Below are positions 53,209 through 59,094 of a DNA stretch of 64,000 nucleotides, in pieces. Below the pieces are notes generated by a model. The model did no database searches, had not been told where the DNA came from, and saw only the letters and a list, made by a program, of their open reading frames with translations. Both the position numbers and the translations under genes were made by a program. Every line of letters begins with the position of its first letter. Position 1 is the first letter of the stretch. This stretch comes from Pseudomonas sp. ADAK13 (GTDB taxonomy: Bacteria > Pseudomonadota > Gammaproteobacteria > Pseudomonadales > Pseudomonadaceae), in assembly GCF_012935715.1 (NCBI RefSeq), contig NZ_CP052860.1:2852001-2916000 (forward strand). Direction: 5' to 3'.

Positions 53209-54021
53209 TTATTCAGCCGCTGGCGCTGGCTGAATGGCGAGCTGATCAGCCAGGCGCACGAAGGCGGCCAGGTCCAGTTGCTCGGGGCGCAGGCTGCCGT
53301 CGACGCCGGCGGCTTCGATTTCGGCGTTGCTGAGCAAGGCCTTGAGCGTATTGCGCAGGGTCTTGCGGCGTTGGTTGAACGCTTCGCGCACCACGCGCTC
53401 CAGCAATTTGTGATCTTTGGCCGGGTGCGGCAACACCGCGTGAGGCACCAGGCGCACGATGGCGGAGTCGACCTTCGGTGGCGGGTTGAATGCGCCAGGG
53501 CCAACGTTGAATAGATGCTCAACCCGGCAATGGTACTGAACCATGATCGACAGACGACCCCAGTCACCACCGCCAGGGCCCGCAGCCAGACGCTCGACCA
53601 CTTCCTTTTGCAGCATGAAGTGCATGTCGCGGATGATGCCGGCGTTGTTCAGCAGGTGAAAAATCAGCGGGGTGGAGATGTTGTACGGCAGGTTGCCGAC
53701 CACCCGCAGGCTGTTGGGCGCGGCGTTGAGGCTGTTGAAGTCGAACTTCAGCGCATCGCCCTGATGCAGGTTGAAGTTGGGCATGCCGGCAAATTGCTGG
53801 TTGAGGATCGGGATCAGGTCCTTGTCCAGCTCAACCACGTCCAGCTGGCCGCCGCTCTTCAGCAGGCCTTGGGTAAGGGCGCCCTGGCCCGGGCCGATTT
53901 CTAGCAGGCGGTCTTCGGGCTTGGCGTGAATGGAGCGCAGGATGCGATCAATCACGCCAGCGTCGTGCAGGAAGTTTTGCCCGAAGCGCTTGCGCGCCCG
54001 GTGTTGGTAATGCTCGGTCAT
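53209..54021 (-). CDS. rsmA: 16S rRNA dimethyladenosine transferase (KsgA)
   Basis: 270 residues. RsmA dimethylates A1518 and A1519 of 16S rRNA late in 30S assembly. The N-terminal [14 protein letters not shown] motif [12 protein letters not shown] (about 41-52) and catalytic [15 protein letters not shown] (about 109-123) are intact. It overlaps pdxA by 4 nt (ATGA). Confidence 0.97.
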
Positions 54022-55005
54022 ATACGGGTCTCGGCCATCTGATAGGCGGTTTCCAGGGCCACGTGCAGGCTGCCGGTATCGATCTTGCCGCTGCCGGCGA
54101 GGTCCAGGGCGGTGCCATGGTCGACGGAGGTGCGGATGATCGGCAGGCCCAGTGTCACGTTGACCGCAGCGCCGAAGCCTTTGTACTTCAGCACGGGCAG
54201 CCCCTGGTCATGGTACATCGCCAGCACTGCATCGCAGTGCTCCAGATATTTGGGGGTAAACAGAGTGTCGGCAGGCAATGGGCCGCGCAGGTCCATGCCC
54301 TCAAGGCGCAGACGCTCCAGGGTTGGTTCGATGATGTCGATTTCTTCATGGCCCAGGTGGCCACCTTCACCGGCGTGGGGGTTGAGCCCGCAGACCAGGA
54401 TGCGTGGGTGGGCGATGCCGAATTTCTGTTGCAGGTCGGCGTGCAGGATGCGTGTGACACGCTCCAGTCGCTCGGGGGTAATGGCGTCGGCAATCTCGCG
54501 CAGGGGCAGGTGAGTGGTCACCAGTGCCACCCGCAGGTCGCCCGTTGCCAGCATCATCACCACTTGTTCGGTATGGGTCAGCTCAGCGAGGAATTCGGTA
54601 TGGCCGGAAAAGGCGATGCCCGATTCGTTGATCACGCCCTTGTGCACGGGGGCGGTGATCATCCCGGCGAAATCCCCGTCGATGCAGCCTTGGCCAGCCC
54701 GTGTCAGGGTTTCCAGGACGAAGGCCGCGTTGGCCTTGTCCAGCTGCCCGGCAACGACCTTGGTCGCCAGCGGGGTATCCCATACGTACAGGCTGTTGGC
54801 CGGCGCCGGCAGATCAGGCCAGTTGCCCGGGCCTACCGACAGCAGATCGACAACCACACCCAGCTGCGCGGCCCGCTCAAGGAGCAGGTCGCGGCTGGTA
54901 ATGGCAATCAGGGGGTGTGGCTGGGGGCGAGGCGAGCAGCAGGCACAGGTCAGGACCAATGCCGGCCGGCTCGCCGGGTGTCAATGCGAAACGCTTGGGT
55001 TTCAC
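54018..55005 (-). pseudogene. pdxA: 4-hydroxythreonine-4-phosphate dehydrogenase with an apparent frameshift
   Basis: PdxA oxidises 4-phosphohydroxy-L-threonine for pyridoxal phosphate synthesis. GTG 55005, overlapping the surA stop as GTGA, starts the conserved [20 protein letters not shown] and continues to LCLLLAS. The body, from [19 protein letters not shown] to the end, is in a different frame. The shift falls in a run of five C (54921-54925 on the coding strand region); deleting one C gives an uninterrupted 328-residue protein ending normally. The metal ligands [17 protein letters not shown] and [10 protein letters not shown] are all intact. As written, only a 313-residue frame from 54959 is open and lacks the N-terminus. 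A sequencing error is likelier than loss. Confidence 0.9.
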
Positions 55006-56339
55006 TGGGCTGCCTGGTCGGTGCCTGTTTGGTCGGCACCAGGAAGCTTGTTCTCTACGTAGGCTTCGTCACGGATCTGACGCAACCAGGTCTGCAGCTC
55101 TTCATCGTACTTACGGTTACGCAGTACGGTCAGGGCTTGTTGCTCGCGGGCCTGGGCGGTGTTGTCAGTGGCGCGACGGCCAAGGACTTCCAGCACATGC
55201 CAGCCGTATTGGGTCTTGAACGGCTTGGACAGTACGCCTTGCGGAGTCTTGGCCATGACGTCCTGGAACTCTGGAACCAGTGCCTTCGGATCGATCCAGT
55301 TCAAATCGCCGCCGTTAAGCGCCGAACCCGGGTCTTCGGAGTAGCTCTTGGCCAGTTCGCCGAAGTCTTCGCCCGCTTCGATGCGGTCATAGAGCTTCTG
55401 CGCCAGTTCCTTGGTTTGTGCTTCGGTACGGATCTCGCTTGGCTTGACCAGGATGTGACGAACGTGAACTTCGTCCTTCATCTGGGCTTCTTCGCCACCG
55501 CGCTTGCCGAGCAACTTGAGGATGATGAAACCGCCCGGCGTACGGGCCGGTTGGGTGATGCCACCGACTTCCATGGCGCTCAGCTCGCGGTCGAACGGAG
55601 GTGGCAGTTGCGCGGCTTTACGCCAGCCCATGTCACCGCCTTCGAGGGCGTTATCGCTGCCGGACTGGGCAATAGCCATCTGCGCAAAGTCAGCACCTTG
55701 CTTGAGACGGTCATAGATAGCCTGGGTTTTCGCCGCTGCAGCATTGAGCTGTTCGGCATTCGCGCTGTCTGGCGTAGGGATCAGGATATTGGCCAGGTGC
55801 AGCTCTTCGGAAAGCTGCATCTTGCCGAGGTCAGAGGCCAGGAAGTTCTTCACTTCCTGCTCGGATACCTGAACCCGCTCGGCCACACGACGCTGACGCA
55901 CACGGCTGATGATCATTTCGCGACGAATCTGGTCACGGGCGTCCTCATAGGACAGGCCGTCGTGAGCCAGGGCGGCGCGGAACTGATCAACACTCATGTT
56001 GTTGCGCTGGGCGATGGTGCCGACAGCCTGGTTCAATTCTTCGTCGCTGATACGGATACCGGAACGATCGCCGATCTGCAGTTGCAGGTTTTCAACGATC
56101 AGGCGCTCAAGCACCTGTTGGTCCAGCACGCTGGTAGGGGGGACGCCGCCGCCACGTTTGGCGATGGTTTGCTGAACTTCCTTGACCCGTTGGTCCAGTT
56201 GGCTCTGCATGATCACGTCGTTATCGACGATGGCCACTACCTTGTCCAGCGGTTGAACCGCCGCGTGAGCGGCGGCAGTACCCAGGAACAGCGCGCCCAG
56301 CATCAGCGGGCGCAGACAATCAGAAAGCTTGGTCTTCAC
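55002..56339 (-). CDS. surA: Periplasmic chaperone and peptidyl-prolyl isomerase SurA
   Basis: 445 residues. Signal peptide of about 28 residues (ends [11 protein letters not shown]), SurA N-domain ([19 protein letters not shown]), then two parvulin domains at roughly 180-280 and 290-390 ([35 protein letters not shown]). SurA escorts outer-membrane proteins, LptD among them, to the BAM complex. GTG 56339 gives the usual [11 protein letters not shown] start; alternatives at 56345 and TTG 56357 are possible. It overlaps lptD by 20 nt. Confidence 0.94.
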
Positions 56340-59094
56340 GTTCACGATAACCTTCAATGCCTTTGTCGAGGAAGCTCTCTACCTTGGCGCCGGTCAGGCC
56401 GCCGAGTCCTTTAAGGACGACTTGGAAGAAGAGCCCGTGGTCACCCTTTTCGTTCAGCGGGGCGATCTGGCTGTATTCGTCGTTGGAAACCCAGTAACGG
56501 TTGATGACGCGCAGTTTCCAGCAGCAGTTGTCGTACTCGAAACCACCGAAGGCTTCCAGGGTACGGTTGCGGGCATAGTCATACTGCCAGCGGGTGATCA
56601 GGTTCCACTGGGGAACGATCGGCCACATCATCGAGAAGTCGTGTTGCTGGATTTTGTAGTAATCCTTCACGAAGTTCGGGTCGCCTGGCTGCCCGTAGTC
56701 GCCACCGAACTGCCATTTGCCGGTCAGCTGGTTGTACACCACCTGGTCGTTGCGATAGCGGTAGCCGACGTTGATAACCTTGTTCGGGTTGTCTTCCGGC
56801 TGATAGTGGAACATCGCGCTGCCGGAGCGTGGGCTGTGACTTTCGGTGTCCCAGTTGTAATCGGCGGTTGCACGCCAGTCGCGGTTGAAGCGGAACTCGT
56901 AGTCCAGGGCGATAGGCGATACGTCCGACTGTGCGTCTGCACGATCAGCTGCGAGGATGCCAGGCAGTTGAACTTCACGATCCTTGAAATACAACGCCTG
57001 GCCAACGCTGACGCGTTGACGTTCAAAGCCATTGTCTTCGATCCAGCGGCTGGTCACGCCCAAGGACAGTTTGTTCTCGTCACCTATACGGTCAGAGCCG
57101 CTGAAGCGATTGTCGCGGAACAGTGAGGCGTAGCTGAACGAGTATTCGCTGGTATCGAATACCGGGATATCGCTCTGGTCCTTGTTCGGTACGTACAAGT
57201 AGTACGCACGAGGTTCCAGGGTTTGACGATAGTCTTTGCCGAACCAGTTGGTGGTGCGGTCGAAGTAAAGGCCACTGTCGATACTGGCAATCGGAACTGC
57301 ACGGTCTTGTGAGCTTTTAAACTCATCGCCGGCAGCTAGACTGTTTTTACCGATAGAGTCGAGGTCGAGATCGTATTTGGTATAGACGTATTTAAGCTTC
57401 GGCGTAACAAAACCATAGGTCCAGTTTATTGGGTAGTCGACAGCTGGAGCAACGTTAAGGCGAGTACCGTTTGCACGGGTCAGGCCTGTCACGAAAGTGT
57501 CCAGTCGATTTGTCGTCAAGCCATTTTCATCTGTGAACGTTCCGTTTTGCAAATCACGTTCGAACCGGACAGCTTCGGTTTCGTAAGTAAAGTTCAGCCC
57601 GCCCGGATGGTAAGGCAGTGCGCCATTAAAGGTGATCTGTGGCAAGCGGTCATACGGCGTGATCTGGGAGATCGTTGCCAGCTGGTACGCCTGCAGGTTC
57701 AGCTTCGCCTGGAAGGTATCACCGCGATAGGTCACCGAACCCTGCTGGTTCACGTAGTCCTGGGTCTTGATCCCTTCCTGATAGGACTTCAGATCCTGGA
57801 AGTAATAAGGATCGCTGATGTTGGTGTAGTCGACTTGGGTCAGTACACGCGAATCCAGCCCACCCTTGTGCTGCCAATTGAGCATGTAGCGGGTTTTTTC
57901 GTAGTCGGTCTGGAGCTTGCGCTCGTCGCTATCGTCGTTCAGGTACGCGCCGCCGAACTGGCCTTCGCTGGACTTGGTGAGGTAGCGGAACTCGCCTTCC
58001 ATCAACAGGCCGCGCTTGGTCATGTATTGCGGGTACAACGTGGCGTCGTAGTTCGGCGCCAGGTTGAAGTAGTACGGCGTAACCAACGTGAAGCCAGTCT
58101 CGCCGCCGGTGCTGAAGCTCGGCGGCAGGAAGCCGGATTGACGACGGTTGTCGATCGGGAAATAGATGTACGGGGTGTAAAGGATCGGAATGTCCTTCAC
58201 GCGCAACGTCACGTTGGTCGCGGTACCGAAACCGGTAGCCGGGTTGAGCGTGATGTTGTTGCCCTTGAGCTGCCAGGCGTTGCTGTTCGGCTCACAGGTG
58301 GTGTACGTACCGTCCTTGAGACGGATGATCGCGTTCTCTGCACGCTTGGCGTACAGCGCGTTGCCGCGGATGCGCGATTTGTGCATCACGTATTCGGCGT
58401 TGTCGACCTTGGCGGCGCCGGTGTCCAGTTGGACTTCGGCGTGGTCGCCCACCAGCAGGGCGCCGTTGTCGCGCAGACGGACGTTGCCGTTCAGCTCGCC
58501 ACGGTTCTCGGCCTGGTACAGGTTGGCCTCGTCGGCCTCGACCTGCATGCTGCCCTGGCGCATGACGACGTCACCGGCCAGGGAGGCAATCTGTTGTTCC
58601 TGCTCGTAACGAGAGGCCTTGGCACCGATGAAGGTCGGTGCGTCGCTCTTGTTCGTCTTGTCGTTCATGCCAGGACGAATCGGCTCGATGTACGCGCCGG
58701 AGCAATACGGGCCGGTTTCGGCCAGTTGCGCCGCGGTGAGCTTCTCGCGAGGGACCCAGTCCAGGTGGCTGTAGTCGGCGCTGCGCGAACGCAGGCCCCG
58801 GCCCTTGGCTTCGGTGACCAGTGCGGTCTGCGGCACGGCTTCGGCACCACCGGCAGACTCGCCTTGCGGCGTGCCGCTGGCGGAGCTGACGGCGCTGCCG
58901 TCATGCACCGGGCGTGGTGGCAGCGGGGCTGCGGCCGTCTTCGGCGCGCAATCCCAGGCACCCGAAGCAGAGACTGAGCAGTCATACTGTTCCGCGGCGA
59001 CCACGAATGAGGTGGCGAAAGGTTGCATGGCCAGCAGACTGCCGGTTACCAGCAACGGAAATTTTCTACGAAACGCGGGGGATTTCAATGCCAT
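56320..59094 (-). CDS. lptD: LPS-assembly outer membrane protein LptD
   Basis: 924 residues, longer than E. coli LptD (784) mainly through an N-terminal region after the signal peptide that is rich in Ala, Pro and Ser (about 30-150), as in other pseudomonads. The signal peptide ends near [10 protein letters not shown]. The OstA jellyroll (about 165-300: [34 protein letters not shown]) precedes the 26-strand barrel domain ([20 protein letters not shown] onward). With LptE it inserts LPS into the outer leaflet. ATG 59094 gives the family N-terminus; the 17-codon extension is rejected. Divergent from amgK across 130 nt. Confidence 0.96.

Follow-up and report, generated by a model that had tools for sequence, protein, structure and literature searches.

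The window, a stretch of 64,000 nucleotides from the genome of Pseudomonas sp. ADAK13, carries the gene pdxA on its minus strand, overlapping its neighbour at either end. The gene starts with GTG at 55005–55003, which forms a GTGA overlap with the stop codon of the preceding open frame (55002–56357, minus strand), which we take to be surA. It ends with TGA at 54020–54018, in an ATGA overlap with the ATG of the following open frame (53209–54021, minus strand), presumably ksgA/rsmA. This start and the two overlaps had already been named in the original prediction, and the sequence and its open frames confirm them. For P. aeruginosa, the operon order ostA-surA-pdxA is reported (PMC9239045). An open frame of 783 aa also runs antisense to pdxA and surA (54063–56414, plus strand) and looks like a shadow of the G+C-rich coding sequence.

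The locus is that of PdxA, the 4-hydroxythreonine-4-phosphate dehydrogenase (TIGR00557, PF04166; PDB 1yxo and 1ps6), with the same gene and the same neighbours. Unlike the PdxA proteins of TIGR00557, however, the ADAK13 version has its 26 N-terminal residues out of frame with the rest, and the whole enzyme is found in no single open frame. The start frame (54877–55005, minus strand) encodes 42 residues before it reaches a TGA at 54879–54877; 26 of these are the conserved N-terminus, including a motif of 10 residues, while the following 16 are unrelated out-of-frame residues. The remaining 302 residues of PdxA (28–329) lie in a different frame at 54926–54021, with the stop codon extending this conserved and undecayed stretch to 54018. 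By itself, the downstream frame scores 393.4 bits against the TIGR00557 profile and hence passes the PdxA equivalog cut-off of 290.35, with coverage from profile position 27 onward; for the intact protein, coverage begins at position 2. Because the N-terminus and the remainder of PdxA are in different frames, as had been predicted, we can conclude that the given sequence does contain a frame break.

For comparison we used 117 related loci from two sources (109 and 8), which are the best matches returned and no random sample, and which hold 104 distinct gene sequences because some genomes entered twice. In all 117 loci pdxA forms a single open frame, 329 codons long, with an extra codon at position 27 relative to the window. 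This codon is CAA in 84 loci, CAC in 17, CAG in 14, and CAT and CTC in one locus each; a single base of it remains in the window. When aligned with the DNA of the relatives G261, G339 and G059, the window is two bases short, with no further gap in about 170 aligned bases. pdxA thus loses its frame soon after the start codon through the absence of two bases that the compared relatives possess. The lesion site (54923–54930, minus strand) consists of codon 26, the remaining base of codon 27 and a run of five C at 54927–54923. A second five-C run follows at 54911–54915 and is, like the first, read as CCC-C in the start frame.

It had been proposed that a C run at 54921–54925 contains one C too many and that its correction gives an enzyme of 328 residues. 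The run is actually located at 54923–54927, and the codon-27 comparison together with the DNA alignment shows that the proposed account is wrong: the change is a net loss of two bases, and the related enzymes have 329 residues throughout. Moreover, the same five-C run is found inside an open frame in six of the 117 loci (L034, L038, L049, L051, L057 and L133, the last from the near sister G261), an outcome that the original prediction had itself named as refuting. An extra C in the homopolymer is therefore ruled out, both by the two-base gap and by these in-frame runs. At codon 27, pdxA is a net two bases short, and this shortfall is no alteration in the length of the C run. A frame break beside a C run need not stem from that run, as the two-base loss seen against the relatives illustrates.

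The downstream frame shows no sign of decay. Across its 302 codons, the window and G261 differ by 25 synonymous and 3 nonsynonymous changes (dN 0.0045, dS 0.1127), which falls inside the spread seen when six intact relatives are compared with one another; His200 is the only private residue against all six. Relaxed selection, as it would follow the loss of a gene, is thus not seen in the downstream pdxA frame in the comparisons with G261 and the six relatives. Selection acted on the gene until very recently. Because the downstream frame is undecayed, the lesion must be either very recent or not real.

We then have to ask how reliable the assembly is. A comparison of 1 Mb of the ADAK13 genome (G000:C1 2406001–3406000) with G339 covered 850 reference open reading frames, of which the 450 that were matched at 80% identity or more were counted and the other 400 were not. 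Coverage was at least 97% for 437 of the matched frames; four were split between frames and nine were partial. Besides pdxA, the splits are at 2580509, 2613690 and 2687520, where the gap precedes a plausible real start and was included by the use of longest-ORF starts. Among the nine partial matches, the gap, where there is one nearby, also precedes a plausible start, except at 2500263; the others have no nearby gap. Here, "plausible start" is the analyst's reading of the alignments. At G000:C1:2500263 (L230), the alignment with G339 has a one-base gap at the very start of a predicted open reading frame of 166 aa, with almost identical flanks. The reverse search, with ADAK13's own frames against G339, gave 435 full matches out of 453, six splits and 12 partial matches. 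The inspection of this reverse search covered the splits: one of them corresponds to the open frame antisense to pdxA, and the other five have a gap before a plausible start. Smaller comparisons, of 200 kb and of 600 kb, had the same outcome as that of 1 Mb, and an extra split against G059 (2830060) is not accompanied by a gap in the alignments with G339 and G261. When the four splits, the nine partial matches and the six reverse splits are viewed as DNA, only pdxA among the 450 conserved frames in 1 Mb is clearly broken within coding sequence; this verdict leaves aside 2500263, of uncertain coding status. The assembly therefore has no general problem of shifted frames. An error-ridden assembly was not found over these 450 frames; the assembly is clean in this region, and one residual error is possible. 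Gaps of two bases on the ADAK13 side number 48 in the 467 kb aligned to G339.

The genome, a single contig of 7,300,098 bases that is given as 100% complete, offers no replacement for the enzyme. A profile search gave one PF04166 match, and the genome search gave no match for PdxST, so that a backup by a second copy of PdxA or by PdxST is ruled out. Some relatives (e.g., G005, G049 and G087) possess further PdxA-like proteins with approximately 35–48% identity, which are absent from the ADAK13 genome. PdxB, PdxJ, PdxH and the pyridoxal kinase PdxY are all present, each above its equivalog cut-off. A gene for an IS110 family transposase (NF033542, 172.2 bits, cut-off 140) is located a few hundred bases 3' of pdxJ (L160:2557–3501). 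With no second PdxA, no PdxST and the genes pdxB, pdxJ, pdxH and pdxY in place, loss of pdxA predicts a requirement for vitamin B6 that salvage could meet. The original expectation that the pdxA frame is lost was borne out, and the pyridoxine auxotrophy derived from it holds as a prediction if the lesion is real. An E. coli ΔpdxA strain is described as a vitamin B6 auxotroph that is sustained by salvage (PMC10202323), and a Tn-seq study of P. aeruginosa PA14 reports pdxA as nonessential (PMC9239045).

A draw of 398 genomes of the genus contained a pdxA match in every one. Four other genomes gave a much weaker best match (G010, G235, G381 and G366). Because genomes were flagged by a weak best E-value, a gene broken as early as that of ADAK13 would escape notice. 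In the near-complete genomes G010, G235 and G381 (L213, L211 and L212) pdxA is interrupted, in G010 twice, while in G366, which is 77% complete, the gene is cut by a contig end. As in ADAK13, the three interrupted cases concern a single gene with a change of frame in an otherwise present pathway; their breaks, however, are at about residues 210 and 252, at 86–102 and at 111–112, respectively, whereas that of ADAK13 is at codon 27. As in recently inactivated alleles (frameshift pseudogenes), the ADAK13 frame is broken relative to intact relatives and there is no intact second copy. Search listings with the openings of abstracts brought up no literature on this pdxA allele.

We give about an even chance to the reading that ADAK13 carries a very recent loss-of-function allele of its sole pdxA, caused by a net deletion of two bases. 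In its favour, codon 27 is complete in all 117 loci and the window is two bases short of G261, G339 and G059, a loss that is not the usual one-base miscount of a homopolymer. Gaps of two bases arise naturally between these genomes. That the gene is the only PF04166 match, without PdxST and with the other tested pathway and salvage genes above their equivalog cut-offs, argues for a real deletion as well, as do the position of pdxA as the one clear coding break among the conserved frames and its reported nonessentiality in PA14. Against it stand a working pdxA as the rule in the genus draw and the lack of relaxed selection with just one private residue, which would be expected for an error as well. 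Such a residual sequencing or assembly error, in which two bases were dropped from the consensus beside the C run and the strain's pdxA is intact with 329 aa, is a serious contender that we hold to be a little short of an even bet. It is consistent with a single-copy pdxA among other tested pathway genes that look intact, with the absence of decay past the break and with the C runs on its 3' side; the interrupted pdxA genes in other genomes, including G010 with its two breaks in one gene, may likewise be errors. What speaks against an error is that no other clear coding break was seen among the 450 conserved frames and that two bases were lost, which is not a miscount of run length by one base. 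On the earlier verdict of "most likely a read error" the evidence points both ways: the assembly is not riddled with errors over the 1 Mb, which makes a read error less likely, but one residual error is possible.

We consider the remaining readings improbable to different degrees. The deletion could be real but leaky, if a +1 slip at CCC-C (54927–54924 or 54915–54912) yielded a little full-length PdxA, which we regard as unlikely. Read in the start frame, both C runs give CCC-C, from which a +1 slip would reach the downstream frame. In E. coli, CCC-C at the second codon is reported to give up to about 1% of +1 shifts (PMC4519876), and a further study gives 1.4% with the normal ProL, compared to 8.2% with the suppressor SufB2 (PMC7803779). 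The parallel to the SufB2 case is that the motif is likewise CCC-C, present twice in the ADAK13 start frame, and that the needed shift is +1. In contrast to that case, however, the published rates are for the second codon while the ADAK13 site is at codons 27–28, the site is not conserved, with none of the 117 relatives having a frame break there, and no suppressor tRNA was seen. A pattern search found three tRNA-Pro genes (GGG once, UGG twice), all of them ordinary, so that no suppressor is in sight, although the patterns would miss a diverged gene and, of the three, only the GGG gene had its anticodon loop read base by base. The related idea of a deletion that suppresses itself, where the shift makes or exposes the two CCC-C sites, an ordinary tRNA-Pro slips by +1 and the strain lives on traces of PdxA, would be similarly doubtful. 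For programmed frameshifting at pdxA we find no support; the slippery CCC-C is present in the right sense at the junction, but a conserved frame break is missing, as all 117 loci have a single open frame. Less probable still is a truncated but active enzyme whose translation begins at an in-frame codon such as TTG 54959. This codon opens the downstream frame and gives 313 aa, but no Shine-Dalgarno-like sequence is found ahead of it, and the product would lack the N-terminus that is conserved in all 117 relatives and that the TIGR00557 profile matches from its position 2 on in the intact protein. We see next to no chance for a phase-variable switch through slippage of the C run, which had also been suggested. 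A C run does sit where the two frames meet, a GC repeat in pdxA is among those listed by a meningococcal phase-variation survey (PMC7371114), and a phage-resistant P. aeruginosa isolate is reported with an in-frame CCC duplication at pdxA codon 30 (PMC12054119). These cases show that such pdxA stretches can mutate, not that ADAK13 has a switch. Five C are an ordinary length, given that 1 Mb of the genome contains 664 runs in which C or G is repeated exactly five times; the lesion does not consist in a longer or shorter run, and the relatives are all in frame. A long simple repeat that varies in length between relatives, as is typical of phase-variable genes, is not present.

If the recent deletion is real, the loss of two bases at codon 27 would separate the frame of the N-terminus and its 10-residue motif from that of the other 302 residues, and a ribosome that starts at GTG 55005 would stop after 42 codons. 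The 4-hydroxythreonine-4-phosphate dehydrogenase would be lost and with it the DXP-dependent route, which is blocked without PdxA, at the step before PdxJ. The strain would then rely on outside vitamin B6, taken into use via PdxY and PdxH. Early termination might additionally lower the expression of the genes behind pdxA by polarity. We infer under this reading that the deletion is present in the living strain, together with auxotrophy and possibly polarity.

In summary, the locus displays an ordinary two-base loss in a known gene, for which a real loss and a residual assembly error are about evenly balanced, and a new kind of gene control at pdxA is not supported. If the break is an error, this genome should not be used to support a claim of vitamin B6 auxotrophy. 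If it is real, ADAK13 would represent, within the Pseudomonas fluorescens group, a natural B6 auxotroph that is equipped with salvage genes, and as such would be useful for studying the exchange of vitamin B6 between bacteria.
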